Of a stretch of 64,000 bases of DNA, positions 26,213 through 53,358 are shown in pieces; the first letter of the stretch is position 1; every line of letters starts with the position of its first letter. The DNA is from Runella sp. CRIBMP (GTDB lineage: Bacteria; Bacteroidota; Bacteroidia; Cytophagales; Spirosomataceae). Both the position numbers and the translations under genes were made by a program. The notes below the pieces were generated by a model. The model saw nothing but the letters and a program-made list of their open reading frames with translations. It ran no database searches and was not told the origin of the DNA. The stretch is from NCBI RefSeq assembly GCF_009905605.1, contig NZ_JAAAKZ010000001.1:868001-932000 (forward strand), given 5' to 3'.

Positions 26213-26298
26213 GGAACAATAAGCTAAATATTTGAAACAATAGACTAAGTTTTCAGAACATCGTACCAACGACTTTTGTTGGGGCGGTTATACTTTTG
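26213..26298 (+). promoter_or_regulatory. Boxed promoter A: three tandem 21-bp boxes before an exact TAnnTTTG element
   Basis: Boxes start at 26213 (GGAACAATAAGCTAA), 26234 (GAAACAATAGACTAAGT) and 26255 (AGAACATCGTACCAACG, degenerate), spaced exactly 21 bp. The last box starts 36 bp before an exact TACTTTTG -7 element (26291-26298). No TTG stands at the consensus -33 position, which the last box covers. The ABC exporter begins 62 bp after the element. This is the most degenerate of four equivalent promoters in the window; binding by an AraC-type factor encoded next door is an inference. Confidence 0.85.
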
Positions 26299-26359
26299 GT
26301 TTATCATTTATTAATGATAAACAAGGGTCTAACCGTAATTATTTAAGATTGTTCTGCGT

Positions 26360-28552
26360 ATGGAAACTCAACATTTTTCGTCTGTATCGGCTTTTGTACG
26401 TCAAAAAGACCACAATGATTCCGCGCTAAAATGCCTAGGAAGCGTAGCGCAACACCATGGAAAAATACTCTCGTTAAGTACCCTCCGGGCTAAAAAAAGC
26501 CATGGTTTCGGTAGCTTGAGAGACCTTGCCGAAACCGCCGAGTCCATGGGTTTCAGAGCCCGTTGCATCAGTATTTCTTTTTCATCCCTCAAACGTGAAA
26601 TTCCGCTGCCCTGCATTATAAAATGGGATAATCACGGGTTTGTGGTAGTTTCCAACATCGTTCAGAATCAGGTTTCCATCTGTACCGACAAAACTCCGTT
26701 GACGGTGTCGGCCGATGAATTTTGTAAGCATTGGCTACCAGCGGGTGCAGAAGAAGGAACCGTATTGTTGCTCGATCCCACGCCCGCGTTTTTTCAGGAT
26801 GCCGAAGCACCCACCGACGCCCAGCCACAGGGATTACGTTCGTTGACGGCCTATTTAAAAAAATACCCCAAATTGATGTGGCAGTTGTGGTTGGGCATGA
26901 TTGTCGGGACTATTCTCAAACTCATTTTTCCTTTTCTTACCCAGTCCATTGTGGACGTGGGGGTGATGAATCATAACCTAAACTTTATCTACATTTTTCT
27001 GGCGGGGCAATTGATGCTGATGGTGGGGCGTAATTCGCTCGAAGCCATTCGGGGTTGGCTCTTGCTTTACGTCAGTACCCGCGTCGGGGTGTCGTTATTG
27101 ACCGATTTTATTGCCAAAATCATGCGTTTGCCCATCAGTTATTTCAACGAGAAAGCGGTGGGGGAGGTGATGCAGCGCATCGAAGACCAAAAACGCATCG
27201 AAACGTTTCTTTCAACGCACCTGATTGCCATCTTGTTTTCGCTACTGAATCTGGTCATTTACACCCTTATTTTTGCCCTCTACGACTTGACCATCTTCGG
27301 TATTTTTCTGGGAGCTACGCTGCTCTATATCAGTTGGATTTCGATTTTTATGAAAAAACGCCGCGAGCATGATTTCAAGCGGGCAAAAATGGCCGAACAA
27401 GAACAAAATAAACTGGTTCAACTCGTTCAGGGAATGCCCGACATTAAGTTGGCCAATGCCGAAATGCTCAAACGCTGGGATTGGGAACAGATTCGGGCCA
27501 AGCTTTTTCGGCAAAATATCAAACTCCTTAAGCTCTCGCAGGTTCAGCAAATCGGCGGCTTGCTCATCAACGAAACCAAGGTGTTGATTATCACGTTTTT
27601 GTCGGCCAAGGCCGTTCTTGACGGCGACCTTTCGCTGGGAGCCATGCTCGCCGTACAGCAAATGCTAGGTCAAACCAACGGCCCTACCGAACAGCTTTTT
27701 GCCTATCTTCAGCAGATTCAGGATGCCCGCATCAGCACAGAGCGCATCAACGCGGTGCATCAAATGCCCGAAGAAGAAGGCGATGATTTTACAAAAGTGA
27801 CGCAGTTGTCGGAGAAACAACCCTTGGTTTTGCGGAATGTAAATTTCCACTACCCAAATGCCCAAAACAGTACTCTCCGCGATATTCGGCTCTACATTCC
27901 TGCGGGCAAAACAACCGCCATTGTGGGCTCAAGTGGCAGCGGCAAAACCACCCTTCTCAAATTGTTGATGAAACATTACGCTCCCACTTCTGGGGAATTG
28001 TCGCTCGGAAAACTCAGTCTCAACAACATCTCAACGCGGGCTTGGCGCAGCGAATGCGGAGTGGTGATGTCGGACGGGGTGATATTTTCGGATTCGATTC
28101 TGAACAACATCGCCCTTGGCGATAACGACCCTGACATGGAACGGCTGCACAATGCCGCTCGGGTGGCTAATATTCACGAGTGGATTGAGTCCACGCCGCT
28201 GGGTTATCACACCATCATCGGCAGTGAGCACGGCAGCATCAGCCAAGGACAGAAGCAACGTATACTCATTGCCCGTGCAGTTTACAAAGACCCTGAATTC
28301 CTGTTTTTTGACGAAGGTACCAGCGCTTTGGACGTTCAGAATCAACAAATAATCATGAAAAATCTGGACGAATTTTTCAGCGGTCGCACCGTAGTAGTAG
28401 TGGCACACCGCCTCAGCACGATTCGTAATGCCGATCAAATTGTGGTCATTGAAGAAGGACAAATCAGGGAAAAAGGCACCCATGAAGAGCTACTTGCCTT
28501 GGAAGGGCGCTATTATGAACTGCTCACCACACAGCTAGAAGCCGCCGCCTAG
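26360..28552 (+). CDS. Bacteriocin-type ABC exporter with degenerate C39-like peptidase domain
   Basis: A 730-residue ABC half-transporter of the SunT/LagD type: N-terminal C39-like domain (about 1-140), six membrane helices (about 165-430), and an ATPase domain (about 480-730) with Walker A GSSGSGKTT, signature SQGQKQR, and a Walker B/D-loop region FLFFDEGTSALD (the usual DEAT is DEGT). In the C39 domain the catalytic Cys of the motif DCGxACL is replaced by Ser21 and the Gly by Ala22 (RQKDHNDSALKCL), whereas His92 and a candidate Asp110 remain. Such domains (as in HlyB) bind but do not cleave the substrate. The HlyD partner follows 142 bp downstream. No precursor peptide was found in the immediate vicinity. 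Confidence 0.93.
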   Translation: METQHFSSVSAFVRQKDHNDSALKCLGSVAQHHGKILSLSTLRAKKSHGFGSLRDLAETAESMGFRARCISISFSSLKREIPLPCIIKWDNHGFVVVSNIVQNQVSICTDKTPLTVSADEFCKHWLPAGAEEGTVLLLDPTPAFFQDAEAPTDAQPQGLRSLTAYLKKYPKLMWQLWLGMIVGTILKLIFPFLTQSIVDVGVMNHNLNFIYIFLAGQLMLMVGRNSLEAIRGWLLLYVSTRVGVSLLTDFIAKIMRLPISYFNEKAVGEVMQRIEDQKRIETFLSTHLIAILFSLLNLVIYTLIFALYDLTIFGIFLGATLLYISWISIFMKKRREHDFKRAKMAEQEQNKLVQLVQGMPDIKLANAEMLKRWDWEQIRAKLFRQNIKLLKLSQVQQIGGLLINETKVLIITFLSAKAVLDGDLSLGAMLAVQQMLGQTNGPTEQLFAYLQQIQDARISTERINAVHQMPEEEGDDFTKVTQLSEKQPLVLRNVNFHYPNAQNSTLRDIRLYIPAGKTTAIVGSSGSGKTTLLKLLMKHYAPTSGELSLGKLSLNNISTRAWRSECGVVMSDGVIFSDSILNNIALGDNDPDMERLHNAARVANIHEWIESTPLGYHTIIGSEHGSISQGQKQRILIARAVYKDPEFLFFDEGTSALDVQNQQIIMKNLDEFFSGRTVVVVAHRLSTIRNADQIVVIEEGQIREKGTHEELLALEGRYYELLTTQLEAAA

Positions 28553-28563
28553 TAGGGGCAGGG

Positions 28564-28635
28564 CTTGCCTCTGCCCGCATTAGCATTCTTTTCTCTGCCC
28601 GCAGTAGAGTTCTTGCCTCTGCCCAAAGTAGAGTA
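28564..28635 (+). repeat. Three tandem 24-bp imperfect repeats between the ABC exporter and HlyD genes
   Basis: The repeats run 28564-28587, 28588-28611 and 28612-28635; each contains CTCTGCCC flanked by CTTGC/CTTTT and a TAG motif. Just before them GGGCAG (28556-28561) and CTGCCC (28571-28576) make a 6-bp hairpin. The array fills most of the spacer between two genes of one transport system; it may be a structured mRNA spacer or a variable repeat. Confidence 0.8.
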
Positions 28636-28694
28636 ACCCTCAAAACAATTCAATCGTCGATTTTATTCAATCCAGTATATAACTTAAACGTAAC

Positions 28695-29975
28695 ATGAAA
28701 AGGTACTCAAATAATCAGTTAGGAGAAGAAATGCTCAGTATTTTGAGCGAAACACCCAGTTGGGTGATTCGTACGGGAGCGGGGGTGATGTCGGGAATTG
28801 TGCTGTTGTTTTTTGTGGGTACGTGGGTTATTAAATACCCCGAAGTGTTGAAAGGAAACGCTATCGTCACCACGCAAGTGCCGCCCATTCGGGTGGTAGC
28901 GCCCATGGGTGGGCGCATGGTACGGCTGTTGGCCAAGGATGAAATGATGGTAAAAAAAGGAGATGTTTTGGCCGAAACGGAAAATACAACGCGGCTAGAA
29001 AATATCCCTACCATGCAGCAATTACTCAGCGATGCGCAGGCTTTTTTACAAAATCCCCAACGTGAAATAGTTTTTCCAAGCAACAACTTTACCTGGGGAG
29101 ATTTACAGGAAGATTTTAACGCACTTCGCCAAAATTACCGAGATTTCAAACGCATTCAGTCAGATACTTACCAAGCAGCGCAGGGGCAAACGATGCAACA
29201 ACAAGCGGAGCAGCTTCGTGCATTGGCAGCCATCAACGAGCGTCAGAAAATGCTCAATGAAGAGGAGTTTGCCAATGAAAAAGAGCATTTTCTCAGCGAC
29301 GAAAAGCTGTTTAACGAAGGGATTTACAGTAAATTTGAATACATCGCGAGCAAGAATAAGCATTTAAAAAAACAACGTGAGCGTGAAGAATTCCTTAAAA
29401 ATACGTTTGAAAATAATTTAAAAATCAACGAATTGGAAGCAGAATTGCGGGTGTTTGAGCAAACGTTTTTGGAAAGAAAACGTCTTTATCTCGACAACAT
29501 CGAACGCAGCGTTCATAACATTGAAAACAGCCTGCGTAATTGGCAACAAAACTACCTCATTACGGCTCCAGCCGATGGTAAGTTGGTATTTTTGAAGAAC
29601 TTAACCGAAAATCAGCACCTCAGTGTTTCGGATACGCTCTTTGCCGTGATGCCAACAAAAGCACAGTTTATTGCCACTATGGATATCCCTGTTCATGGCA
29701 TGGGAAAGGCCGATGTGGGCCAAAAAGTCATCATCAAACTAGACGACTATCCCTATCAAGAATTTGGGATGCTCGAAGGGCGAGTACTGAGCCTGGCTCC
29801 TTCGCTCAATGTGCGCTATTACCGCGTCATGGTGGCGCTACCTAAAGGGCTGAAAAGTACCTACAACCAGACCTTTGTTTGTAAGTCAGAAATGGCGGGT
29901 ACGGCAGAAATCGTAACCGCCGACCTACGCCTGATTGAACGTGCCTTCTACGGTTTTCGGAAGTTATTAATGTAA
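28695..29975 (+). CDS. HlyD-family membrane fusion protein (ABC exporter adaptor)
   Basis: The adaptor that joins an inner membrane ABC exporter to an outer membrane channel. One membrane helix near residues 25-45 (VIRTGAGVMSGIVLLFFVGT) is followed by a lipoyl-like half motif IRVVAPMGGRMVRLLAKDEM, a long coiled coil from about residue 110 to 280, the return half NYLITAPADGKLVFLKNLTEN near 290, and a beta-barrel domain. Length 426 residues, normal. It is the partner of the C39-type ABC protein. No TolC-like outer membrane factor is encoded nearby, so one from elsewhere must serve. Followed 179 bp later by the second AraC-TolB-TPR gene without an obvious terminator. Confidence 0.92.
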   Translation: MKRYSNNQLGEEMLSILSETPSWVIRTGAGVMSGIVLLFFVGTWVIKYPEVLKGNAIVTTQVPPIRVVAPMGGRMVRLLAKDEMMVKKGDVLAETENTTRLENIPTMQQLLSDAQAFLQNPQREIVFPSNNFTWGDLQEDFNALRQNYRDFKRIQSDTYQAAQGQTMQQQAEQLRALAAINERQKMLNEEEFANEKEHFLSDEKLFNEGIYSKFEYIASKNKHLKKQREREEFLKNTFENNLKINELEAELRVFEQTFLERKRLYLDNIERSVHNIENSLRNWQQNYLITAPADGKLVFLKNLTENQHLSVSDTLFAVMPTKAQFIATMDIPVHGMGKADVGQKVIIKLDDYPYQEFGMLEGRVLSLAPSLNVRYYRVMVALPKGLKSTYNQTFVCKSEMAGTAEIVTADLRLIERAFYGFRKLLM

Positions 29976-30154
29976 GGTATTTTGGGTAGGCGTACCGCGA
30001 CGGTTAGGTAGTTAAGAAATCCAAAATACAGGCCAAGAGAATTGGTCTTCAATCAAGGATATTTATTGTCCAATAAAATATTCTAAAAATATCATTAAAG
30101 GCCTTAACTTTATACCCAAACATGGCCCTAGTATTTGATTCCCAAGTTGGTCGT

Positions 30155-32065
30155 ATGAGTGTACCCGAAAATGTAATCATTGAGAAATTAACCCGAATTG
30201 TTGAGGAAAACCTTGATAATCCTACGTTTTCATTAGATCAGGTCTATAAAGAATTGGGTATCAGCCGGACGCACCTGCACCGGATTATCAAAGACCAAAC
30301 CCAACTCTCGACCACGCTGTACATCCGAAAAATAAGATTGCACAAAGCAAAAGAGCTACTGGCAACGTCCGACTGGCGTATTGCCGAAATTGCGGATTTG
30401 ATCGGAATAGACAGTCCCCAAAATTTCAGTAAATACTTCTTTGAAGAATTTGCGGTTAGCCCGACCGAATTCAGAAAACAAAAAAATATCCCTGTCCCAG
30501 CGAGCAGCACTTTTACGGTGAGCGGGCCCAGTGTTCAGGGCGCTTCGGTGCATCGTTCAGACAAAAGTTATCGGTACGTATGGGGTGGTATCTTTTTGGC
30601 CATATGGTTTGTGATTGGGGTGTATTTTTGGAAAAGTCAGGAAAATTCACGCTCTGCTAATACGTTCGGTGTGGCTAATTACAACGAACTTTTTGATAAC
30701 TCCGTTGCCATTTTACCCTTCAAAAGCGATGCTAACGGCGAATCGCTGGCCGAAGGGGTAATGGAAGAAATCCACGGTTCACTGTCGCTCATTGAAAACC
30801 TCAAAGTAATTGCCCGGCGGTCTTCCAACGAATACAAAGACAGCGGAAAAACGGCTCGGCAGATTGGGGCCGAACTTCAGGTGGCGTATATTTTGCAAGG
30901 ACGCGTCGATGAAAAGAAAAACAAGGCGCAAGTGGCGCTAGAATTGGTTCGTACCCAAGATGGTATCACGGTTTGGACCAAAAACCAGGAAGGGGATTTG
31001 AAGAATTTTTTCAACCTAATGAACGAAGTCGTCAAAGAGCTTGCTTTAGAACTTAACCAAAAGATTACACCCGAATTGGCGAATAAATTAGAGCGGGTTC
31101 CGACAAAAAATGCCGAGGCTTACAATGAGTTTTTGCAAGGACGCTTGCTCATGATTGAGCGTACCCAAGAAAAATTGGCCGCGAGTATCCAGAAGTTTGA
31201 ACGTGCGCTGGCGCTCGACCCCGATTTTGCGGAAGCCTACGCTTACAAAGCGATTGCTAGTCATCTCAGGGGAAATATGGGCTATGCCGATATGGCGACT
31301 AGCGGCAATGCCGCCGAACAAAACGCGCTGAAAGCGATTCAGTTGGATGCGAAAAATGCCACGGCTTACGCCACCTTAGGGAATGTGTACCGGGATCAGT
31401 TTAAGTGGCAGCAAGCCAAGACATCATACACTATTGCCTTGAAATACCGCCCCAACGACGCCCAAACCATTTATTGGTATAGCTTGTTGATGCGCTCGAT
31501 GGGCCACCCAGAGGAGGCCCTCCAATACAGCGCCAAAGCCATGGCCATCGACCCGTTGTACCCCGTTATTTTGGGTGGGCATGTCTTGAATTGTGCCTAC
31601 GCTGGGCGGTACGATTTGGCCGAAAAAAGCATCAAAGATGGACAGTTGATTTTCGATGACTCCTTTGTGTATTACATGGCGAGGGGCTACTATTATTTGA
31701 TTCGGGAGAACTACGCGCAGGCGCTGAAAGAATTCAAAAAAGTGCAGGAGTTGAATCCGAATATGAAATATTTCAGCACGCTCATCTACTATTGCGAAGC
31801 CCGCCAGGGCAATAAAACTTCGTCGGTGTCGTATCTAAAATCGCTGGGAAATCACCCGCAAGATTACCTTTCTAAGTCGATGGTTTACGCAGGCATGGGG
31901 GAGAAAGACAGCAGCATGGTTTACTTACAAAAAGCGGCCGATTTGGGCGTTATTCACTCCGATATTCTGGTAAATCCAACGTTCAAAATTCACCGAAAAG
32001 ACCCCCGTTTTGAGGCCATTCTTCGCAAGTTTGACTTAATGGATTCTAAATCACTGCCTCAATAA
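30155..32065 (+). CDS. Membrane-anchored AraC-TolB-TPR regulator (ToxR/CadC-like topology)
   Basis: Paralogue of the 24397 protein: residues 1-110 match it over the AraC DNA-binding domain (first HTH SLDQVYKELGISRTHLHR, second IAEIADLIGIDSPQNFSKYF), which aligns residue for residue and fixes the start at the ATG 30155; the upstream ATG at 30122 adds eleven residues with no counterpart. Unlike the paralogue it has a membrane helix at about 141-159 (YVWGGIFLAIWFVIGVYFWK). The TolB-like domain (SVAILPFKSDANGESLAEGV) and TPRs follow, so they would lie in the periplasm and the DNA-binding part in the cytoplasm, as in CadC or ToxR. It sits between HlyD and the second boxed promoter and is a candidate activator of the boxed promoters. 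The signal is unknown. Confidence 0.87.
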   Translation: MSVPENVIIEKLTRIVEENLDNPTFSLDQVYKELGISRTHLHRIIKDQTQLSTTLYIRKIRLHKAKELLATSDWRIAEIADLIGIDSPQNFSKYFFEEFAVSPTEFRKQKNIPVPASSTFTVSGPSVQGASVHRSDKSYRYVWGGIFLAIWFVIGVYFWKSQENSRSANTFGVANYNELFDNSVAILPFKSDANGESLAEGVMEEIHGSLSLIENLKVIARRSSNEYKDSGKTARQIGAELQVAYILQGRVDEKKNKAQVALELVRTQDGITVWTKNQEGDLKNFFNLMNEVVKELALELNQKITPELANKLERVPTKNAEAYNEFLQGRLLMIERTQEKLAASIQKFERALALDPDFAEAYAYKAIASHLRGNMGYADMATSGNAAEQNALKAIQLDAKNATAYATLGNVYRDQFKWQQAKTSYTIALKYRPNDAQTIYWYSLLMRSMGHPEEALQYSAKAMAIDPLYPVILGGHVLNCAYAGRYDLAEKSIKDGQLIFDDSFVYYMARGYYYLIRENYAQALKEFKKVQELNPNMKYFSTLIYYCEARQGNKTSSVSYLKSLGNHPQDYLSKSMVYAGMGEKDSSMVYLQKAADLGVIHSDILVNPTFKIHRKDPRFEAILRKFDLMDSKSLPQ

Positions 32066-32153: not shown

Positions 32154-32258
32154 GGAACAATAAACTAAGTTTTTGGAACAATAAACTAAGTCTGGAACGA
32201 TAAACTAATTAATTGCCCAAATAGACAAACAGCTTCAATTTATAGCTCCTTAGCTTTG
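32154..32258 (+). promoter_or_regulatory. Boxed promoter B: four tandem boxes before an exact TAnnTTTG element
   Basis: Boxes start at 32154 (GGAACAATAAACTAAGT), 32175 (same), 32194 (GGAACGATAAACTAATT) and 32215 (GCCCAAATAGACAAACAG, degenerate), with spacings of 21, 19 and 21 bp. The last box starts 36 bp before TAGCTTTG (32251-32258). Two copies are identical over 17 bases. The large secreted protein begins about 305 bp downstream (from the ATG at 32564), leaving a long leader. A fourth box makes this promoter different from the other three. Confidence 0.9.
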
Positions 32259-32371: not shown

Positions 32372-32563
32372 TTCGGTGCTCGAAAGGCCAGCCTTTGGCG
32401 GCTTTCGTGGATGCGTTTTCACGCTTGGGATTTTCCACTTTTTACACGTTTACAATTACACTTTACCCTACTTTTTTTACAAGCGTTTCGTATGAAAAAC
32501 TCTCTATTATTTTCCCAATCCTATCTATTTATGAAGGTCTTTTACCCTACTGTTGTTGATTCA

Positions 32564-35500
32564 ATGAGAAAATTCTTCTCATCAATCACCCTCATGAAAC
32601 ATTTACTCCTGATCCTAACCGTTCTGTGCGTAGGGTTCACTTCCTCGTATGGAACTACCTTCACCGTCAGCAACACCACCAATAGCGGTACAGGTTCATT
32701 GCGCAAAGCCATTGACGATGCCAATGCTGACAACACGGCTACGGCGGCCAATCCGCATATCATCGATGCGACAGGCGTGACAGGCACCATCTCCGTGACC
32801 ATCGACCCCGCCAACAGCCTATTCTTCCTGGTGATCACCAACCACATGACCATCAAAGGCTCGGGAGCCCCAAACCTTACCATCAGTGGCAATGGTACTA
32901 ACCGCATCTTTTGGATTCAAAACGGCACCATTACCCTCCAAGACCTCACGCTCGCCAACGGCTACGCCAAAGGTGGCAATGGTAATAGCGGTGGTATGGG
33001 TGCTGGCGGCGCCATTTTTATTCATGAAGGTAAACAGGACCCAACTACTGCTACCGGTGTGCTGAGCGGCAGTATAGACCTGCGCCTGCTCAATGTGACG
33101 CTCAAAAGTAATCAGGCAATCGGCGGCAACGGTAGTAATTTTACCTACGGCAGTGTCAGGGGGGGCGGTGGTCTCGGCGGCGGCGGCGTTAATGGCACCG
33201 GCGGTGGCGGCGTATTGGGCAATGGGTCCATAGTTGGAGGAAGTGTAACGAGTGCTGGAGTAATGCCAGGTACCAACGGCGGAATTGTAATCTTCGGCGG
33301 CGGCGGCGGGAGCGGGAGCAGTGGCGGCTTCGGCAGCAGTGGCGGCTTCGGCGGCGGCGGCGGTAATGGCAGCGGCGATGGCGGCTTCGGCGGCGGCGGT
33401 GGCTCAGGTAGCCCAAACTTGGGCGTACAGGGCGATGGCGGCTTCGGCGGCGGCGGCGGCCTATACGGCTATGACGGCAATGGAGGCGATGGCGGTTTTG
33501 GCGGTGGCGGCGGCGGCAGCAGTGGCGGCTTCGGCAGCAGTGGCGGCTTCGGCGGCGGCGGCGGTAATAACAGCGGCTATGGCGGTGGCGGCGCTGGCTT
33601 TGGGGGCGCTATTTTTGTCACCAGCGGTAAGCTCACTTTACAAGGGGTCACTTTTGATGGCAATACTGCTATCGGTGGTACGGGCTACAACAACGGCAAG
33701 GGCTACGGCGGTGCGCTTTTCATTTTTGATAAAGCGGACAATGGCGGCACAGTCGCTCCGGGTACCACCAATGACCCGCAAGTAGTTGGCTGCAATGTGA
33801 CGTTTACCAGCAACAGCGCTTCGGATGACCCGAATAGTGCGACCAACAATGACAACCTGTATGGGGCAATTGCATCTGCATCTATAACCATCAATGCCCC
33901 TACCGTCACGCAACCCACCTGTACCACCCCTACGGGAACCATCGTTGTCAACGCCACGGGTAGCGGCACGTTGGAGTACAGCATCAACAATGGCAGCAAT
34001 TGGCAAAGCAGCAATACCTACGGTGGCCTTGCCGCTGGCAATTACAACATCAAAGTACGCTTGCAAGCCAGCCCCACTTGTGAGGCTACCTACGCCAGCA
34101 ACCCCATGGTACTCACTTCGCCGTTTATCGCCTCCACCACTACCGACACTTGGACGGGCTGCGTCTCTACGAACTGGGCCACTCCAGGCAACTGGGCAGA
34201 TGGCAGCGTACCTACGGCAGTAGACGATGTAGTGCTACCCAATACGATCAACAAACCCAGCATTGTGGGTGGGACTGCGGCAGTAGCTAAAACCATTGAA
34301 GTACAAACTGGAACTACCCTCACCATTGCCGCCATGGCCAGCCTGACGGTGAATGGCTCGAAGACCATTTCGGGAAACACCGTCGCTTTCTTTAACGGCG
34401 GTACAGTGACCAATAGCGGACAGGTGGCGATTGGGAGTTCGGCTATGGCAGATGTAGGCAAATACGGAATTCGTAACGAAGGCACATTCAACAACAGCAC
34501 TGGGGGCAACATTCAAATCGACCGCTGGACGGATACAGGTTTATACAATGAGGCTGGGAGCTTTACCAATTCAGGAAACATCATCATTGGGGCATTGGCT
34601 GCTACTGGGAAAGATGGCCTTTTCAACGGGGCAATTTTCAGCAATACTGGTGCGGGGCTTATTCAGATTGACCGCTCATTTTCGGCAGGTATATCCAATT
34701 TATTTTCGGCTACGTTTACCAACTCGGCCAGTATTACGATTGGCTCATTGGCATCGGTAGGCACCTGGGGTCTATTGAACCTAGCTACTTTCAACAACAA
34801 TACGGGCGGGGACATTAAAATTGATAATGCAGGCGATGGAATTGAAAACCGAAATATTTTCAATAACAACACGGGTGGGCAGCTAACCATTAATCGTTCT
34901 ACGGGTTTTGCCTTAGAGAATTTCGGCACCTTAGACAACAGCGGTACGATACGAATAGGCAATATCACATCGGTTGCCAACCGAGGCATTGTGCATCGCA
35001 ACGGCGGTACGTTGAACAACAAAACGGGCGGCTTGATCCAAATTGACCGCACCTCGGCGGTTGAAGCTTTTTTTACCTCTGGGGTAGTGAACAACGAAGC
35101 CACCATCGAGATTGGAAGCAATGCGGCGGTGACAGGACTGGGGCTCTATATTGATTCAGGAACCGGCATATTTAATAACAAAGCAGGCAGTCTCCTGACC
35201 ATTAATCGTTCTACGAAGTGGGGAATGGAGAACAAAGGTACTTTGGATAATAGCGGCACGATACGGGTAGGCAATATCGCCTCTGTTGGTGCTATATGCA
35301 TCGTACATCGCAATGGCGGCACATTTATTAACAAAACAGGCGGTGCTATCTATATGGATCGTACAACGGCGGGTGGGCAAGCCCTCTATTCTTCTGGGTT
35401 ATTCAATAACCAAGGCGCTATCAAAATTGGTAGTAATGCAGATCTCAGCGGGGAAGGTATTAGAATAGACGGGAATACATTTAACAATGAGGCTCTCATC

Positions 35501-38134
35501 GAAATCGGTAGTCAAGCGGATGTGAAAGGATATGGCATCCGAAATGGAGGTGGTAGTACCTTTAATAATAAGGTTGGGGGAGAGATACGAATCAATCGAA
35601 TAGGGATTTTAAATACTGGCGTCATAGGTGCTATTTTGAATATTGGAACCTTCACTAACGATGCGACGATTACCGTAGGAAATATTGGGCTTGTTAGTGC
35701 ACAAGACGGTATTCTGAATCTAAGTAATTTTACCAACAATGCCGCAGGCGTCATTTCTATTGAAAAAACCTGGGGCAATGGCATCTGGAATTCCTCTGGT
35801 ACTTTCCAAAATGCCGGAAAAATCACGATTCGTAACGTCTTCAATTATTTTGAAGGGACTTACAGCACGGGAATCCTCAGTACGGTTCCTTTCACCAATA
35901 GTTCAGGCGCAGAAATCCACCTTGACCAAGTGGCCAATGGAATAATCTCTACCCGTGCGTTTACCAATGCAGGGCTGATTCGGATGGGAGAAAACGGCCC
36001 CTTAACGGGAAGCGGTATCGCTAACGTACAAGGAGTTAATGCGGTGTTTAACAACAATGCGGGCGGAGACATTAGCATCAAACAAACGGCAGTGGATGGT
36101 GTGCAAAATGACGCACTTTCCACCTTCAACAACAACGCCTGCGCCAAGCTCACGATTTTTGATAACCTCAACAACGCCGGTACTTTTACCAACCTGGGCC
36201 TCTTTACGGTCAATACTACTCAAGCGCATACCAATACAGCCCTCACCAACAACGGAGTCATCGAGTACCCGCAGGGCAATCCCATCCCCAACGTGACCAA
36301 CAATGATGTGATTATAGCGCCCATCAGCACCTGTGGCGTACTTACGCCTGCCCTACAAATTGGGGGTTCCAATGACTTTACCGTGAGCGGTACGTGGTAC
36401 AAAGATGCCAATATGACGGTTGCGGCAGGTACTTACAGCGGCAATACATTTACGGTCACCGACCTGACGGTGGGTGCTCATACGCTTTATTTCACCGTGA
36501 CCAATCCTGCCAATGCGTGTCCGCGAACGGTAGGGATTAATGTGACGGTCAATCCCGCCAGCGTCGGCGGAACGGTGGGTGCCGCCCAAACGATTTGTGC
36601 AGGTACATCGCCCGCTGATTTAACTCTCACGGGCAATGCGGGCAACGTGGTCAAATGGCAGAAATCAACCGATTTGGCCTTCACTTCACCGACTGACATC
36701 GCAAGTACGAGTACAACACTTACCAGTGCCACTATCGGTAACCTGACAACAAACACTTATTTCCGCGCCGTGGTCAAAAACGGGGTGTGTGACGAAGTCA
36801 ATTCCATGCCGGTTTTGATTACCGTTAACGGGCAAGAAATCAACCTTCAAGGAGGTTCTCCCCTCACCAATATCCCCGATGGTGACAACACGCCTACGGC
36901 GGCCAAAGGAACCGATTTTGGAAGTTTTGAGGTGATTGGTAATGTAATAAAAACATTTACTGTACAAAATACGGGCAGTACTCCCCTCAATATCAGCAGC
37001 ATTGTTTCCAACAACGCGCTGTTTACGGTAGGTGCTTTATCTCCTGCCAGTCCAATTGCGGCAGGCGGTTCGGCTACTTTCACAGTTACCTTTTCGCCCA
37101 CCGCAACGGGCGTCCAGAATGCCACCATCACCGTCAACAACAATGATTGCGACGAAGCGGTGTATGATTTTGCCGTAACCGGCAATGCTGTTTGCCCTGC
37201 CATTGTCATCAATGCACCTACTGTTACGCAATCCACCTGCACCACTCCTACGGGGACCATTGTGGTCAACGCCACGGGTAGCGGTACGTTGGAGTACAGC
37301 ATCGACAACGGTAGCAATTGGCAAAGCAGTGCCACTTTCGGCGGCCTTGCCGCTGGAAATTACAACATCAAAGTACGTTCGCAGGCTTTTCCTACGTGCA
37401 CAACGACCTACGCCAGCAACCCCGTGGTAATTACCCTGAAAACCCCTCCTTCGGTGGATGCGGGTAGCTGCAAATTCGTATACAATGGCTACGGCAGCAA
37501 CTGTACCAATCTGACTGCCTCGGCCACGGGTGCCGCGGGTGGGTTTACGTACAGTTGGTCGCCGGGCAATCTATCGGGTGCCACGGTGCAGGTATGCCCC
37601 ACGGTTACCACCACTTACACCGTTACGGTGACCGATGCCAACGGCTGTACCTCCACCGACGAGGTAACGGTAGAGGTCATTGACGTGCGTTGTGGCAATT
37701 CCAATGCCGTCGAAAAAGTGCTGGTTTGTTTTGGAGGCAAGTCGCTCTGCGTAGCGCCGACGGCCGTACCCGCCCTTTTGGCCAACGGTGCCACGTTGGG
37801 CGCCTGCGGTATCACGCCTTGCGGCACCCAAAGCAACGCCCGCCTCGGTGTGGAGTCCGACGAAGCAACGCGCCCAATGGCCCTGATGATGCAGGTGTAT
37901 CCTAATCCGACCGCTGGTTTGGTAACGGTTGATTTGCGCAACGTCAGCAAGGGATTGGCGCGGATTGAAGTGGTAGATTTGATTGGCCGCCCATTGGTGC
38001 AAAAGGCCGAGCAGATGAACGAAGGAGCCAACCAACTCTCCTTTGATTTGAATCAGCTGCCCGACGGACTGTACTTGATTCGCTGCCGCGACAGCCAAAA
38101 CCACGAAGCGGTTGTGAAGGTCAATAAGTTGTAA
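32564..38134 (+). CDS. Giant secreted repeat protein with type IX secretion sorting domain
   Basis: About 1,856 residues. From MRKFFSSITLMKHLLLILT a signal peptide ends near SSYG (an ATG at 32594 would do nearly as well; earlier starts lack a signal). Order: CSLREA-like/parallel-beta-helix region, a Gly-rich segment of FGGGGG and SSGGFGSSGGFG units (about 33290-33610), a first SprB-like unit (33883-34128), many degenerate units of the form FNNxxGGxIxIDR and NSGTIRIGNI predicted to form a beta-helix, a choice-of-anchor D (HYDIN-like) domain, a second copy of the SprB-like unit (37199-37440), a PKD-like domain, and a type A T9SS tail with VYPNPTAGLVTVDLR ending in AVVKVNKL. It should be exported by T9SS and attached to or released from the surface as an adhesin or filament. 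Confidence 0.92.
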   Translation: MRKFFSSITLMKHLLLILTVLCVGFTSSYGTTFTVSNTTNSGTGSLRKAIDDANADNTATAANPHIIDATGVTGTISVTIDPANSLFFLVITNHMTIKGSGAPNLTISGNGTNRIFWIQNGTITLQDLTLANGYAKGGNGNSGGMGAGGAIFIHEGKQDPTTATGVLSGSIDLRLLNVTLKSNQAIGGNGSNFTYGSVRGGGGLGGGGVNGTGGGGVLGNGSIVGGSVTSAGVMPGTNGGIVIFGGGGGSGSSGGFGSSGGFGGGGGNGSGDGGFGGGGGSGSPNLGVQGDGGFGGGGGLYGYDGNGGDGGFGGGGGGSSGGFGSSGGFGGGGGNNSGYGGGGAGFGGAIFVTSGKLTLQGVTFDGNTAIGGTGYNNGKGYGGALFIFDKADNGGTVAPGTTNDPQVVGCNVTFTSNSASDDPNSATNNDNLYGAIASASITINAPTVTQPTCTTPTGTIVVNATGSGTLEYSINNGSNWQSSNTYGGLAAGNYNIKVRLQASPTCEATYASNPMVLTSPFIASTTTDTWTGCVSTNWATPGNWADGSVPTAVDDVVLPNTINKPSIVGGTAAVAKTIEVQTGTTLTIAAMASLTVNGSKTISGNTVAFFNGGTVTNSGQVAIGSSAMADVGKYGIRNEGTFNNSTGGNIQIDRWTDTGLYNEAGSFTNSGNIIIGALAATGKDGLFNGAIFSNTGAGLIQIDRSFSAGISNLFSATFTNSASITIGSLASVGTWGLLNLATFNNNTGGDIKIDNAGDGIENRNIFNNNTGGQLTINRSTGFALENFGTLDNSGTIRIGNITSVANRGIVHRNGGTLNNKTGGLIQIDRTSAVEAFFTSGVVNNEATIEIGSNAAVTGLGLYIDSGTGIFNNKAGSLLTINRSTKWGMENKGTLDNSGTIRVGNIASVGAICIVHRNGGTFINKTGGAIYMDRTTAGGQALYSSGLFNNQGAIKIGSNADLSGEGIRIDGNTFNNEALIEIGSQADVKGYGIRNGGGSTFNNKVGGEIRINRIGILNTGVIGAILNIGTFTNDATITVGNIGLVSAQDGILNLSNFTNNAAGVISIEKTWGNGIWNSSGTFQNAGKITIRNVFNYFEGTYSTGILSTVPFTNSSGAEIHLDQVANGIISTRAFTNAGLIRMGENGPLTGSGIANVQGVNAVFNNNAGGDISIKQTAVDGVQNDALSTFNNNACAKLTIFDNLNNAGTFTNLGLFTVNTTQAHTNTALTNNGVIEYPQGNPIPNVTNNDVIIAPISTCGVLTPALQIGGSNDFTVSGTWYKDANMTVAAGTYSGNTFTVTDLTVGAHTLYFTVTNPANACPRTVGINVTVNPASVGGTVGAAQTICAGTSPADLTLTGNAGNVVKWQKSTDLAFTSPTDIASTSTTLTSATIGNLTTNTYFRAVVKNGVCDEVNSMPVLITVNGQEINLQGGSPLTNIPDGDNTPTAAKGTDFGSFEVIGNVIKTFTVQNTGSTPLNISSIVSNNALFTVGALSPASPIAAGGSATFTVTFSPTATGVQNATITVNNNDCDEAVYDFAVTGNAVCPAIVINAPTVTQSTCTTPTGTIVVNATGSGTLEYSIDNGSNWQSSATFGGLAAGNYNIKVRSQAFPTCTTTYASNPVVITLKTPPSVDAGSCKFVYNGYGSNCTNLTASATGAAGGFTYSWSPGNLSGATVQVCPTVTTTYTVTVTDANGCTSTDEVTVEVIDVRCGNSNAVEKVLVCFGGKSLCVAPTAVPALLANGATLGACGITPCGTQSNARLGVESDEATRPMALMMQVYPNPTAGLVTVDLRNVSKGLARIEVVDLIGRPLVQKAEQMNEGANQLSFDLNQLPDGLYLIRCRDSQNHEAVVKVNKL

Positions 38135-38181: not shown

Positions 38182-38234
38182 TTCAATATTTAATTATCTG
38201 TCTATGAGTGAGTTATTTTTTAAAATTTGACAAA

Positions 38235-39700: not shown

Positions 39701-39786
39701 GGAACAATAGACTAACTTTTTGCAACAATAGACTAAGTTTCTGCAACAATAGACTAATGTTGTCTATTTTAAGCTAACTATCTTTG
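39701..39786 (+). promoter_or_regulatory. Boxed promoter C: three tandem boxes before an exact TAnnTTTG element
   Basis: Boxes start at 39701 (GGAACAATAGACTAACTT), 39722 (GCAACAATAGACTAAGTT) and 39743 (GCAACAATAGACTAATGT), each 21 bp apart. The last starts 36 bp before TATCTTTG (39779-39786). The core AACAATAGACTAA is identical in all three boxes. The first gene starts 46 bp downstream of the element. Confidence 0.92.
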
Positions 39787-39832: not shown

Positions 39833-40639
39833 ATGAAAAATGCTAAACATTACGTGCTCTTCGTTGCCCTTTTATTGAGCAACCTTTCACTTTTGGCTCA
39901 GAACCCCGAGCCTTCCTTTTTTATCGTCGAAACGATGAAGGCAACTCCTGGTAAGGAAGCCGAATACCTCAAAGCTGAACGCGAGGTTTGGAAGCGTATT
40001 CATCAGGAGCGCATCAAACTTGGTCTGATTACTTCGTGGAGCTTGTATGCCGTCCGGATGCCAAGCGGCACCGACCGACCCTATGATTATGTCACCGTAA
40101 CGGTGGTTCAGGGGTGGAAAAAGTTGGAAAATCCGTACGGGAATTTGCTCGCTAGTGATGTTGAGAAATTGTTGACCAAAGAACAACTTGCCATTGCGAA
40201 CGAAACTGGAAAACTGCGTAATCTGACCCAAAGCAATGTGTTTTACGGTGTTGATTTTGTGGCCGCCGACCCCAAGGCCACCACATTCGCCAAGTATCAA
40301 ATGATCAATTTCATGAAAGTAAAAGACGAGAAGGCGGAGGAGTATTACAACATGGAAACCAAGTTGGTGAAACCGATGCACGTTGAAATGATGAAAACAG
40401 GTGGGCGCTCGGCATGGGGGCTTTACAGCCGCGTGTTGGGTGGAGAAGGGCAACCGTTTAATTACGTCACTTCTGATTTTTATAACAAGTGGGAAGACAT
40501 GGCTGTTGCTTCCGACTTTCAAAAAATCTTAGCAAAAGTGCATCCCGGTATGACCTCCAAAGCCTACGAAAAAAAGATTTTTGACGCGCGGAGCATGGTA
40601 AGTCAAGAGTTGTGGGAATTGCTAGATTCGGCACGCTAA
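39833..40639 (+). CDS. Secreted protein of two dimeric alpha/beta-barrel (NIPSNAP/ABM-like) repeats
   Basis: A 268-residue exported protein (signal ends near SLLAQNPE) made of two copies of a ferredoxin-like unit: first FFIVETMKATPGKEAEYLK followed by TSWSLYAVRMPSGTDRPYDY; second YQMINFMKVKDEKAEEYYNM followed by SAWGLYSRVLGGEGQPFNYV. The order, spacing and motif positions match between copies, so it is a fused duplication, which in single-copy proteins of this fold is achieved by dimerisation. Related folds bind haem or aromatic compounds; no function is assigned here. It is the first gene after boxed promoter C and is followed by a strong hairpin. Confidence 0.8.
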   Translation: MKNAKHYVLFVALLLSNLSLLAQNPEPSFFIVETMKATPGKEAEYLKAEREVWKRIHQERIKLGLITSWSLYAVRMPSGTDRPYDYVTVTVVQGWKKLENPYGNLLASDVEKLLTKEQLAIANETGKLRNLTQSNVFYGVDFVAADPKATTFAKYQMINFMKVKDEKAEEYYNMETKLVKPMHVEMMKTGGRSAWGLYSRVLGGEGQPFNYVTSDFYNKWEDMAVASDFQKILAKVHPGMTSKAYEKKIFDARSMVSQELWELLDSAR

Positions 40640-44303: not shown

Positions 44304-44831
44304 ATGAAAAACAGTAACTTTTTCTTACCTGCCACTGTAGCAGTTGCTATTTCTTTTTTAACCATCGGGTGTAATTCGCCTGCTACTGACACTACAACCA
44401 AATCTGTTGCGGAGACTACCGAACAAGCAGTGACCAAGCCAGACATGGCGGCCATAAAAACTGAAATACAAGCCTTAGAAACGGCTTGGGCTGCCGCCGA
44501 CAATGCCCGCGATGTGCAGGCATTACTGGCTTTTTATGCCGATGATGCCGCGAGTTTGTCCAATAATGCACCAATGGTAGTAGGCAAAGCGGCTCTTCAA
44601 AAGGACATTGAGGCAAACTTTGCCAAAAAAGCCAAAGGTGCCACGAGTGTCTATGAAGTTATGGATGTTTTTGGCGACGAAAATACCGTTACGGAAGTTG
44701 GTAAGTCAACGCTCAAAGATGCCTCCGGAAAAGTGATTTCTACGGGTAAATACATGGCAATCTGGGAAAAACGTGATGGAAAATACCTGTGCGTACGAGA
44801 TATTTACAACGATGACGTGAAAGCGAAGTAA
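44304..44831 (+). CDS. DUF4440-like lipoprotein, paralogue of the 38235 gene
   Basis: A 175-residue lipoprotein (lipobox LTIGC at about Cys23), followed by a Thr-rich linker and the same NTF2/SnoaL-type domain as the 38235 protein: DVQALLAFYADDAASLSNN, then GKYMAIWEKRDGKYLCVRDI. It ends in a basic tail. The domain binds hydrophobic ligands; no function is known. It closes the C unit (receptor, dioxygenase homologue, DUF4440) and is followed by a hairpin. Confidence 0.85.
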   Translation: MKNSNFFLPATVAVAISFLTIGCNSPATDTTTKSVAETTEQAVTKPDMAAIKTEIQALETAWAAADNARDVQALLAFYADDAASLSNNAPMVVGKAALQKDIEANFAKKAKGATSVYEVMDVFGDENTVTEVGKSTLKDASGKVISTGKYMAIWEKRDGKYLCVRDIYNDDVKAK

Positions 44832-44839
44832 TCATCTAG

Positions 44840-48616: not shown

Positions 48617-48674
48617 TAAGACTTGATTTCGCGTCTATTCACATTCGATTTTCTAACTGCTTATTTTCGTGATA

Positions 48675-49604: not shown

Positions 49605-49651
49605 GCAAAAGATTTTCTCCTTCTGGGCTATCGTTTTAGATTTTGGAAATA

Positions 49652-50344
49652 TTACCCCGTGCTCGACAAATTATTTGGAAAATCTTTTTTCGACAAAGGA
49701 ATTTCAGAATTTCCTACTATCACGCTTTTAGAATTGAACTTTTCAACTTTGTTTTTATTGACAATAAAAGCTCGATGGATTTGTATAAATGATAATGACG
49801 GGAGAACTTTAAGAATCTGCTCAATGGTTGAGCGACATTTATAGGTCTTTTTATCGGTGTAAAATAGCAAATAGTTGCCTTCTGATGTGATATAGTTGAT
49901 GTCTTCTATTGGCAATGCAACCTTGTATTCACCATCTTTTACCAAAATTGTAGGTTTGGGTTTGTCTTCTTTGGCAGATTTGATAATTGCCAATTCGACA
50001 GAGGCAACTAAGTCGCTGTTTTTAAACGGTTTGGTTAAATATGAATATGGCGAAGTTGCTACGGCTTCGCTGATAACTTTTGCGTTTTCGTAGGCAGTCA
50101 GATAAATAAATGGTACTTTTTGTTTGTTTTGAATGAGATTTCCCAAGCTGATACCGTCCATTTCGCCATCGCCAAGGTTGATGTCGAGAATGGTGAGGTC
50201 AACCAATTCTTTATTGAGAATCTTCAAGGCTTCGTCGGCATTTTTTGCTTCTAAAACCTGATAACCATTTTCTTGAAGAATCTTCTTGGTGAGTCTTCTA
50301 TTCAGATAATCGTCTTCTACGACTAAAATTACCTTTGGATTCAT
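49652..50344 (-). CDS. LytTR-family response regulator
   Basis: A 230-residue response regulator: receiver domain with the acidic pocket EDD (10-12), phospho-acceptor D54 (LTILDINLGDG), Thr and Lys in AYENAK and YLTKPF; then a LytTR DNA-binding domain (about 130-230) with INYITSEGNYLLFYT and FIQIHRAFIVNKNKVEKF, the typical beta-rich signature. LytTR regulators bind direct repeats of about 9-12 bp with a spacing near 21-22 bp, which is worth noting because boxes in this window have similar spacing. The kinase gene lies 2 bp upstream in the same operon. Confidence 0.93.
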   Translation of the reverse strand: MNPKVILVVEDDYLNRRLTKKILQENGYQVLEAKNADEALKILNKELVDLTILDINLGDGEMDGISLGNLIQNKQKVPFIYLTAYENAKVISEAVATSPYSYLTKPFKNSDLVASVELAIIKSAKEDKPKPTILVKDGEYKVALPIEDINYITSEGNYLLFYTDKKTYKCRSTIEQILKVLPSLSFIQIHRAFIVNKNKVEKFNSKSVIVGNSEIPLSKKDFPNNLSSTG

Positions 50345-50346
50345 CT

Positions 50347-52158
50347 TTAAAAATAGATTTTCAGTTCGAAGCCTTTTTTGAGGTATGTTTCTATTTTACC
50401 ATTGAGTTGGTCAATCAAACCTTTCATTATTTCTACGCCAAGCCCTTTGGTTTCTACATTTACAAAATCAAAACCTTCGCCATTGTCAATGTATTGTAGG
50501 CAATTCTTTTTTGAATGTGTGTCATACCTAATTTCGATATCGATGATGCCATTTTGCTGGTTTTTGAAGGCGTGTTTCATGCTATTGCTGACCAATTCGA
50601 CGATTATCAGACCTAAAGGCAAAGCCTTTGTGATAGATAAAATTTCAACTTCGCAAGTGATAAACAAATTCACATTTTTAAATTTATTATCATACGAATC
50701 TTTGACGAGTTCGGAGAGGTCTGTTATGTATCTTTTCAAATCAACGTCATTGACACTATCGGTTAAATTTAATTTTTTATGAAGCAGAGCAATCGAATGA
50801 ATTCGATTTTGGTTGCTTTTAATCAAGTCGTCAATATTGCTATAATTAACTGATTCTTTCTGGATTTCTAAGATACTGATAACGTACTGTAAGTTATTTT
50901 TTACTCGGTGTTGCAACTCAGAAAGTAGCATTTGCTTCTGCTCCATTGTTTTTTCAATTTCATCTTTTTGAAGGCTTATTTCTCTGTTTTTATCCTTCAA
51001 AATAGCCACACCTTTTTGTTTCTGACGGTTGTTTCGTATCAAAATCAATGTTAGCAAGCCTAAAGAAATGAGAAATCCGATGAGTGCATTCTGCCTTATT
51101 GAGTTATCGTAATCTTTTTTTGCTTCTTTTAAATCTCGCTCACGTTGTTGTATAGTGTTTACGATATTTTGTGTCTGAATAATTCTTGTAGCGGTATAAA
51201 GGCTATCATTTGTAGCATTCAAAATTTTTAAATAATTGATGGCCTTTGAGGGATTTTTATGTTCATATATCTCAGCTAAAAGTTTTGCGGCACTTGCTGT
51301 CAGCACTGAATTTTTAAATTTTCTACCCCCATTTAAGGCTTTTTCGGCATAAAAAATAGCGGAGTCTGGTTGATGGATTGCATGAAAAATGCCTGCTAAA
51401 TCAACCGATTGTTCTGATTCTAAAAAAGGATTACCAAATTTGTTCGAAAAACTCATTGCTATTTTTAAGTATTGCAATGCTTCTGCATAGTTTTTTCGTT
51501 TTTTTTCTACTCTGCCCATTATTGCATTTGCATACGATACCTCTATGGGAATATTCAGTTTTCGGCAATTAATATCTATTATTTCCGAATATTTCATTGC
51601 AGAATCATATTCATTTAGGTTTTCGTAAACCTCACCAATGTTATGGTAAATCAGCCATTTCCCATTGTTGGGTAAGGAGTTGATTTCGGGGTGATGATAG
51701 GCTTTCAATAGCCATTCCAGCCGCTGTTTACTATCTTGTTGCTTTTCATAAACAAGTGCTATCAAATTATAAAATACGATTTCTAATTTGGGGTATTTGG
51801 TTTGACTTATTTTCAAACCTTCATAAGCAGTTTGCATACCATTTTGCCAGTCGCCTGTAATGGTTGATACAAAACTTAAAGACTGTAAAGAAACCAATTC
51901 GCCGTAGGTGTATTTGAGTTTTCGGGCGAGCGTAATTGCCTCAGTTGCATACAACACCGCCTGACGAGGCTCTGTCATGGTATGATACCTTGCCAAACGC
52001 CATAAGCTAATGACTCTATTGGTGTCTTCTTTAAAAACCGTCAGATTTTGTTTCAATCTATCGACCTCTTTCGCCGGCAAACTAAGTGGTTGACCAAAGC
52101 CAGAGGTAGCCAAAGCCGTGATTAGCAAAAGTGATATTTTAATGAGTTTGCTCGGCAT
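50347..52158 (-). CDS. TPR-containing histidine kinase (HisKA_2 type)
   Basis: A 603-residue sensor kinase of the kind paired with LytTR regulators in Bacteroidota. Signal peptide, TPR-like helical repeats (about 30-320), one membrane helix near residue 365 (ALIGFLISLGLLTLILI), a coiled coil, then the HisKA_2 dimerisation domain with phospho-accepting His417 (ELQHRVKNNLQYVISI), and an HATPase domain (SNSMKHAFKN, YIDNGEGFDF, GLGVEIMKGLIDQLNG). The TPR part lies outside the cytoplasm. The stop is 2 bp from the response regulator start. A palindrome lies just upstream of the start (52170-52203). Confidence 0.93.
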   Translation of the reverse strand: MPSKLIKISLLLITALATSGFGQPLSLPAKEVDRLKQNLTVFKEDTNRVISLWRLARYHTMTEPRQAVLYATEAITLARKLKYTYGELVSLQSLSFVSTITGDWQNGMQTAYEGLKISQTKYPKLEIVFYNLIALVYEKQQDSKQRLEWLLKAYHHPEINSLPNNGKWLIYHNIGEVYENLNEYDSAMKYSEIIDINCRKLNIPIEVSYANAIMGRVEKKRKNYAEALQYLKIAMSFSNKFGNPFLESEQSVDLAGIFHAIHQPDSAIFYAEKALNGGRKFKNSVLTASAAKLLAEIYEHKNPSKAINYLKILNATNDSLYTATRIIQTQNIVNTIQQRERDLKEAKKDYDNSIRQNALIGFLISLGLLTLILIRNNRQKQKGVAILKDKNREISLQKDEIEKTMEQKQMLLSELQHRVKNNLQYVISILEIQKESVNYSNIDDLIKSNQNRIHSIALLHKKLNLTDSVNDVDLKRYITDLSELVKDSYDNKFKNVNLFITCEVEILSITKALPLGLIIVELVSNSMKHAFKNQQNGIIDIEIRYDTHSKKNCLQYIDNGEGFDFVNVETKGLGVEIMKGLIDQLNGKIETYLKKGFELKIYF

Positions 52159-52169
52159 AATTGCTAAAG

Positions 52170-52203
52170 AACTTCCCGAAAGGACTAAAACTTTCGGGAA
52201 GTT
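52170..52203. repeat. 13-bp palindrome upstream of the histidine kinase gene
   Basis: AACTTCCCGAAAG (52170-52182) and CTTTCGGGAAGTT (52191-52203) pair perfectly with an 8-base loop. It lies 12 bp before the kinase start and about 290 bp after the end of the lectin gene on the same strand, so it could terminate lectin transcription or bind a regulator. The rest of 52204-52492 is AT-rich and shows nothing else. Confidence 0.65.
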
Positions 52204-52492
52204 GATTTTATTTGCTTTAATAAATCTTTCTGTAAACTTAACACAAAATCATATTCATTTTTGTGGTTTACAGAAGTCTATTTATTAATCTTTCAGACCA
52301 TAAAACTCCTTCACAGCATTGTTTCTTTGTAAAGAAAATGTTGAGATTTTCAATTAATAACAGCAGCTGGTATTGAGAAAATAGTATAAGACATGAATAA
52401 CTGCTACAGTTAGAATCCTTTACATTCACAGGCGCATGTATCAATACTATAAATTAAACATGTTGGGTTACGTAGAGACATTGATTGTTTAT

Positions 52493-53059
52493 TTATTGCA
52501 CTGGTACTAATCTCCACATTTGGCCCGAAACATTCTGAGTTTTATCCATAAATGCATTGCCCGAATATACAGATTTATTTTCAGGCTTATTTCCTTCCAA
52601 AGAAAAGTTGTTGCCATGGAGCATTGTACGTAATCTATAAAGGTGGTCCCCGTTATTGGCACTCACTAAATCTAATCGCCATAGTTGCCCTGTTACATCT
52701 TGACAATTATCCATAAAAGACCGTCCATCTTTCTCTCCCCCGGCAGTATTAGCCTCCAAACATCTACCATCGCCCTGATCATTCGATTTTAAGCGATACC
52801 AACCTTTATTTTTAGCATCTGGAACCAATTTCCACATTGTTCCAGTCGCACCTTTTTGGGAAGACATGAACGATGCACCAGTCATAACATTACTCGCTGA
52901 GCCATTGCTTTCAAGAGATAGGGCGTCGCCCGTGAATGCCGTCCTTAAATAATAATAGCCTTGATAATTAGGGCTAAAAGAACGCCCCCGCTCTTGGGCA
53001 TAAGATGTTAATGTAAGGCCAATGAGCAGAATCATTCCAATGGTTTTTAAAGTTTTCAT
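52493..53059 (-). CDS. Secreted ricin-type beta-trefoil lectin-like protein
   Basis: A 188-residue exported protein made almost entirely of three repeats, each starting with a strand such as YYYLRTAFTGDALSLES, WYRLKSNDQGDGRCLEAN or LYRLRTMLHGNNFSLEG and ending with a Q/T-x-W strand (GTMWKL, GQLWRL, GQMWRL). This is the ricin B beta-trefoil layout, whose QxW motif is present in two repeats (TMW in one). It should bind a sugar on the cell surface or in the medium. A signal peptide ends near SYAQERGR. The gene is on the minus strand with its own promoter, before the kinase operon. Confidence 0.87.
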   Translation of the reverse strand: MKTLKTIGMILLIGLTLTSYAQERGRSFSPNYQGYYYLRTAFTGDALSLESNGSASNVMTGASFMSSQKGATGTMWKLVPDAKNKGWYRLKSNDQGDGRCLEANTAGGEKDGRSFMDNCQDVTGQLWRLDLVSANNGDHLYRLRTMLHGNNFSLEGNKPENKSVYSGNAFMDKTQNVSGQMWRLVPVQ

Positions 53060-53131
53060 TTAGGTAAAGGTTTACTATTTGTTGCCTACTCTGAATCAGC
53101 ATTTTCGGCTTCCTGCTTTTTGATAATGTAC

Positions 53132-53162
53132 CAAAGCTAAATTGGCATACAAAGGCGTCAAA
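53132..53162 (-). promoter_or_regulatory. Bacteroidota-type promoter of the lectin gene
   Basis: On the minus strand an exact TAGCTTTG -7 element (53139-53132) is preceded by TTTG (53162-53159) with a 19-base spacer, matching the Bacteroidota consensus exactly. The lectin ATG at 53059 lies 72 bp downstream. Confidence 0.75.
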
Positions 53163-53273
53163 ATTTTAGGGATAGAAGCCCGATTTTAGGGACAGAATGA
53201 AGATTTCACTTGCCTTGAATTCTTTATTATACCCAGCGCTAAGAGCTAGTTAATAGATAGAAACTCACACTTT

Positions 53274-53358
53274 GGAACAATAGACAAAGTTTTGGAACAA
53301 TAAACAAAGTCTTTGGAACAATAAGAGCAGCCTTTCAGAAACCCGCTTTTTATCTTTG
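53274..53358 (+). promoter_or_regulatory. Boxed promoter D: three tandem boxes before an exact TAnnTTTG element
   Basis: Boxes start at 53274 (GGAACAATAGACAAAGT), 53294 (GGAACAATAAACAAAGT) and 53315 (GGAACAATAAGAGCAGC), with spacings of 20 and 21 bp. The last starts 36 bp before TATCTTTG (53351-53358). The core GGAACAATA is identical in all three. Here the second half reads ACAAAG rather than ACTAAG. The first DUF418 gene starts 70 bp downstream and no hairpin strong enough to end transcription follows until well into the long run. Confidence 0.92.

Follow-up and report, generated by a model that had tools for sequence, protein, structure and literature searches.

Several described regulators share parts of the system considered here. 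At pBAD, Escherichia coli AraC binds to direct half-sites with a spacing of about 21 bp, of which the inner lies beside the -35 region, and the DNA-binding domain of CadC is a winged helix of the OmpR type. The closest known counterparts are the hybrid two-component systems (HTCS) of Bacteroides, the operators of which are, according to PMC3878776, direct repeats with sites on average 21 bp apart; for HTCS_Man, a 5-bp spacer lies between two sites of 16 bp. In a 64,000-nucleotide stretch of the Runella sp. CRIBMP genome (Spirosomataceae, Cytophagales; contig NZ_JAAAKZ010000001.1, positions 868,001 to 932,000; hereafter the window), we find four promoters, all on the + strand, that carry three or four tandem 16-bp boxes upstream of a -7 element, and this array layout recurs in related bacteria. 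It is highly probable, judging from sequence, that the boxes are the operators of one-component, often membrane-anchored AraC activators which replace a missing -33 contact in the style of class II activation. The four arrays and their -7 elements are as follows:

26213..26270, + strand: array 1, boxes at 26213 and 26234, degenerate box at 26255
26291..26298, + strand: -7 element of array 1, TACTTTTG, 36 bp from the start of the last box
32154..32230, + strand: array 2, boxes at 32154, 32175 and 32194, degenerate box at 32215
32251..32258, + strand: -7 element of array 2, TAGCTTTG, 36 bp from the start of the last box
39701..39758, + strand: array 3, boxes at 39701, 39722 and 39743
39779..39786, + strand: -7 element of array 3, TATCTTTG, 36 bp from the start of the last box
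53274..53330, + strand: array 4, boxes at 53274 and 53294, degenerate box at 53315
53351..53358, + strand: -7 element of array 4, TATCTTTG, 36 bp from the start of the last box

A preliminary description of the window had reported three or four copies per promoter, at 26213, 32154, 39701 and 53274, spaced 19-21 bp; the boxes are located as stated there, and the ten not listed as degenerate all stand on the + strand. That description also placed the last copy 36 bp upstream of an exact TAnnTTTG; the distance holds at all four promoters, whereas the last copy itself is degenerate at three, with 7/16 (26255), 5/16 (32215) and 4/16 (53315) mismatches to GGAACAATARACWAAG by eye, and is well preserved only at 39743 (2/16). 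At locus L282, from another species, array 1 has different first and second boxes and yet an unchanged degenerate third box, which suggests that this third box is functional. The arrays are not a product of chance, given that 6 tandem box pairs occur in the window and none in 60 dinucleotide shuffles; 100 shuffles yield on average 3.0 boxes with at most three mismatches, compared with 11 in the window, and the + strand has one TAnnTTTG in roughly every 1,830 bases. Across 21 aligned array promoters, which include some orthologues (e.g., L117 and array 3), the information content is 1.33 bits per column in the last-but-one box, 1.03 in the last box, 1.48 in the -7 element, and 0.28 in the 20-bp spacer. 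A TTG starting 20-27 bp before the -7 element is found in none of the 21, and one lying nearer (12-19 bp) in 6, so that the -33 TTG was rightly called missing or out of place.

The fixed distance is seen again in other genomes. A motif scan blind to the rule returned 33 arrays, many of them orthologues or one locus counted twice, with an exact TAnnTTTG at 36 bp in 25; another four have no exact element but carry GAAATTTG, TATTTTTA or GACCTTTG at 36, one has the element at 90, and three have it at 57, namely array 1, where the scan ends one box early (57 = 36 + 21), and its orthologues. Among 20 curated arrays, the element at +36 is exact in 8 and matches in at least 5 of 6 positions in 16, no other offset coming close. 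Eleven further Runella arrays were also collected, 10 with the element at 36 and one (L278) at 37, although some of these came from a profile in which the -7 element is included, six or more seem to be orthologous to previously used arrays, and L274 and L276 appear orthologous to each other. Two other profile matches (L283 and L284) have no flanking boxes and were taken as coding sequence, outside this set.

Arrays 1 and 2 each follow a gene for a protein with an AraC-type domain, which contains two helix-turn-helices, and a TolB/TPR body:

24397..26148, + strand: R1, 583 amino acids, AraC (HTH_18) DNA-binding domain and TolB/TPR body (Pfam, alignment), no transmembrane segment by hydropathy
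30122..32065, + strand: R2, 647 amino acids, AraC domain, probable transmembrane helix and CadC-like TolB/TPR sensor (Pfam, alignment, borderline hydropathy of 1.77, structure model)

R1 is likely the regulator of array 1 and R2 that of array 2, the arrays beginning 64 and 88 bp after the respective stop codons. The HTH_18 matches have E values of 1.3e-19 and 4.5e-19, the model of R2 contains seven helices over residues 16-121, for which solved AraC-type relatives exist, and the predicted fold of the sensor resembles that of the CadC periplasmic domain. Pfam reports only AraC and TPR-type families in the two proteins, with no kinase or receiver domain. Similar proteins were found at E 1e-70 in 18 of 61 genomes of the family, and there were matches in 36 of 194 genomes of the order, a set overlapping the first; matches to the body alone, cyclase-like or lacking an AraC domain, were excluded. 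From the window, L041 and L116-L225, 68 open frames were taken that combine a TolB/TPR body with an AraC domain at the N-terminus; they reduce to 37 at 85% identity, comprising 24 closer and 13 distant members. Hydropathy exceeds 1.8 in 24 of the 37, is borderline (1.56-1.79) in 5, including R2, and reveals no segment in 8, including R1. By eye and by script, 20 of the 24 closer regulators have an array, which lies within 131 bp of the stop codon in 19 and at 611 bp in the other (L127); in L124, one box overlaps the gene end.

The period of the arrays emerges without recourse to the motif. When the 260 bp after each stop codon were searched for a 16-base stretch repeated with at least 12/16 matches, lag 21 was found in 18 of the 37 regions and lag 20 in 7, compared with a shuffle mean of 0.5; further lags at 30 (4 regions) and 40-42 (3, 5 and 3) are those expected under helical phasing. 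Grouped into bands, a repeat at lag 19-22 is present in 20/37 regions and in 0-4/37 for six other bands.

That the AraC domain is what binds the boxes is best supported by co-variation. For 20 regulators, distances between box sequences correlate with distances between DNA-binding domains (Mantel r=0.65, p=0.0002; again 0.65 with the body held constant) but not with those between TPR bodies (0.13, p=0.07), whereas the spacer follows neither domain nor body (0.03 and 0.06). Helix 2 alone tracks the boxes at r=0.70; when the comparison was broken down into single helices and half-boxes, no assignment of either helix to one half of the box emerged. By eye, where the first recognition helix contains LFR, as it does in three proteins, every box is of the GGTCA or GACCA kind. 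GACCA is present also in L141 and as the last box in L143 and L156. Four of the five proteins with STYF in the second recognition helix, L122 being the exception, have ACGAAG boxes, which are absent from all other proteins of the co-variation table.

Collectively, from the sequences, their geometry, the adjacency of genes and arrays, the co-variation and the predicted fold, we infer binding, activation, the orientation of the monomers, a periplasmic sensor and the assignment of regulators to arrays. The activator would consist of a CadC-like TolB/TPR sensor and, N-terminal to it, an AraC-type DNA-binding domain, in many cases with a single transmembrane helix between the two. One monomer would occupy each 16-bp box, reading it with its two helix-turn-helices, and successive monomers would line up head to tail on one face of the DNA, about 21 bp or two helical turns apart. 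With TAnnTTTG numbered -12 to -5, as in PMC9723704, the last box falls at -48 to -33, where a bound protein could stand in for the -33 element and touch RNA polymerase; the innermost site would thus overlap or abut the -33/-35 position, as in class II activation. The one-face binding beside RNA polymerase proposed in the preliminary description is supported, and adjacency, co-variation and the absence of the -33 TTG favor its choice of the AraC-TolB-TPR proteins as the probable binders. Most regulators would serve the neighboring gene, while the three encoded by this genome may share or divide its six arrays.

A number of observations weigh against this interpretation. Four of the 24 closer regulators (L182, L147, L129, and L157) have no array, and L152 shows a single clear box. 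Conversely, the arrays at 39701 and 53274 and those of L040, L273, L274, and L276 have no adjoining regulator, so that action in trans must be assumed. At +36, four of the 20 curated arrays fall below 5/6 (L153, with 4/6, and L137, L152, and L139, which fail), and the 36-bp rule itself served to place the last box of L279 and the third box behind R1 and to set the phase of L141. Lowering the cut-off of the motif-free test to 11/16 narrows the contrast between lags to 24/37 versus 5-13. Helix 1 distances alone do not track the boxes (r=0.08), and shared ancestry inflates the Mantel p (0.0002 for the DNA-binding domain), for which the body and spacer controls correct only partly. Other AraC genes of the same genome show an upstream repeat at lag 19-22 in 6 of 24 cases (five at 12/16, one at 13/16), and one of them, L296 (C1:423634), which encodes an AraC-domain protein of 935 residues, has downstream a 16-base sequence in two copies that agree at 15/16 positions with a lag of 21 and may form an operator for a hybrid two-component regulator.

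The last two observations bear on a serious, if somewhat doubtful, possibility, namely that the layout is general to AraC- and HTCS-type promoters of the phylum and not special to CadC-like regulators, which would be compatible with the activator model and would lower its novelty. The 21-bp average of Bacteroides HTCS repeats and the 16-bp sites and 5-bp spacer of HTCS_Man, as given in PMC3878776, point the same way as the L296 repeat. Against this, L296 is the only one of 28 control loci (out of 75 AraC domains, with R1 and R2 set aside) to show a downstream repeat in the flanks of the gene itself, and no TAnnTTTG stands 36 bp past its second copy by eye. LytTR proteins, too, bind direct repeats about two turns apart, and a LytTR domain is encoded at 49652-50344, as part of a response regulator and TPR histidine kinase pair (49652-52158, - strand) lying between the arrays; LytTR genes also stand behind the regulators L041, L126, and L129. 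A LytTR response regulator is nonetheless improbable as the protein that recognizes the boxes, since these genes lie downstream, where targets would be, the LytTR domain is found in the downstream gene of only two among 16 scanned arrays, and box sequence tracks the AraC domain. Least credible of all is a mobile or interspersed sequence copied beside genes with no regulatory role: the array on contig C15 does resemble a copy of the 32154 leader, but phase and -7 distance are fixed while the spacer has diverged (0.28 bits, against 1.33 and 1.03 in the boxes), only six arrays exist in 7.1 Mb, and the boxes co-vary with a protein domain.

If the boxes are AraC operators, the regulon they define appears small and mostly local. 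The whole 7.1-Mb genome was searched with a profile that joins two boxes, the spacer and the -7 element, 150 of 3260 first-look candidates being scored; nine matches at E <= 3e-5 resulted, all confined to six arrays, the next match having E 0.40. Four of these arrays are those of the window. Another, at C1:846961-847055, sits 21 kb before the window and 131 bp behind the third of the three AraC-TolB-TPR regulators of this genome (E 1e-70), and the last is on another contig (C15:10428-10532) and similar to the 32154 leader; five of the six lie within ~75 kb. The common operators of the preliminary description are supported, whereas three regulators and six arrays do not support a single activator with a broad regulon; few local promoters are what would be expected if most regulators act on the adjoining gene. 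Family-wide, there are many regulator-array pairs, with boxes differing between pairs. Region L044 (C12:472116) of the same genome and region L131 (genome G056) yielded no array in the motif scan. An exact tandem pattern sought in 84,980 genomes occurs at 41 loci, of which by eye four (L078, L083, L084, and L092) look like true arrays, the other 37 resembling scattered matches or simple repeats of the AACAATAAAC type; genome G012, of the same genus, has the same arrays as the Runella aurantiaca loci L084 and L092. A looser pattern in 59 relatives gave mostly noise, a backward control being at least as common in many genomes, and its matches were kept only if the longer box was present.

The genes behind the four arrays differ in predicted function:

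26360..28552, + strand: target of array 1, C39-peptidase ABC exporter (Pfam, NCBIfam)
28695..29975, + strand: HlyD-type fusion protein (Pfam)
32411..38134, + strand: target of array 2, 1907-residue protein with a type IX secretion sorting tail (Pfam)
39833..40639, + strand: target of array 3, secreted-looking protein, no Pfam family (homologues)
53429..54757, + strand: target of array 4, DUF418 membrane protein (Pfam)

The HlyD-type gene possibly forms one operon with the exporter, near which no convincing double-glycine peptide was found. Array 3 is tied to this regulator class by its target, a homologue of which (64% identity) stands behind the regulator of L136; another (50% identity) occurs in L125 of Jiulongibacter, behind an array directly preceded by a 122-residue protein with an AraC domain and no sensor body (L125:2545-2913). 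Among the genes downstream of 16 of the 20 curated arrays, which were scanned with Pfam, five are SnoaL/DUF4440-like (only that of L138 above the cut-off), two have LytTR domains, two type IX tails and one an outer-membrane barrel. Paired related genes also surround the window arrays (SnoaL/DUF4440 at 38208-38705 and 44304-44831, dioxygenase at 43324-44214 and 56148-57065, DUF418 at 53429-54757 and 54801-56105), which suggests local duplication. Near array 4, an Rfam DUF805b RNA motif (53083-53118, - strand; 41 bits, gathering threshold 35.6) lies just upstream of a minus-strand ricin-type lectin gene.

The distant regulators, from other families of the order, have a different box, TGCRTCATARTTTATA, situated upstream in the divergent direction and repeated at lag 20 in 9/37 upstream regions. 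In 8 of 11 cases, a distance of 79 or 80 bp separates the second box from a TAnnTTTG-like element (at least 5/6); in L214 the distance is 59, one box less, and L192 and L198 do not fit. The offset with the highest mean in this group is 35, slightly ahead of 79 and 80 (3.36 versus 3.18), which weighs against the interpretation. The divergent genes of these 13 regulators encode ankyrin repeats in all 10 scanned, and look lipoprotein-like by eye. Elsewhere, a weak AraC match is located at the C-terminus of TolB/TPR proteins (L163, L164, L180, L213, and L224), the first three of which have another repeat-like sequence downstream by eye and perhaps represent the same system with the domain order reversed.

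Among the matches listed in the open-access literature, none describes this regulator class or its operator. The arrays provide a readable promoter grammar, in that for most closer members the operator is legible right after the stop codon of the regulator, and the paired changes in boxes and recognition helices are a natural data set on DNA choice by AraC domains. They also reveal an AraC domain combined with a CadC-type sensor and, as far as sequence tells, a Bacteroidota promoter design in which the activator seems to replace the -33 contact. With CadC and ToxR-like regulators, the proteins share a DNA-binding domain and, by prediction, the periplasmic sensor fold of CadC, hydropathy suggesting a transmembrane helix in most members; they differ in having an AraC domain in place of the winged helix and, in 8 of 37 members, no hydrophobic segment. 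The direct sites with a spacing of about 21 bp, and an inner site adjoining the -35 region, recall E. coli AraC at pBAD, unlike which there are three or four boxes, a Bacteroidota -7 element and a different sensor. Closest are the Bacteroides HTCS, which, according to PMC3878776, have in common with the present system an AraC-type DNA-binding domain, ~16-bp direct repeats at ~21 bp (the 16+5 build), adjacent targets and a motif similarity that tracks the DNA-binding domain. In contrast to HTCS, R1 and R2 do not combine a histidine kinase and receiver in the same protein, the sensor is a CadC-like TolB/TPR body, the DNA-binding domain is usually N-terminal, the boxes often number three or four, the targets in the window are not polysaccharide loci, and the last box is fixed 36 bp from the -7 element, HTCS operators having been compared by box size and period only. 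Thus, the 16+5 direct-repeat build is already known from HTCS, whereas the lack of a kinase, the CadC-like sensor, the longer arrays and the fixed promoter distance appear to be new.

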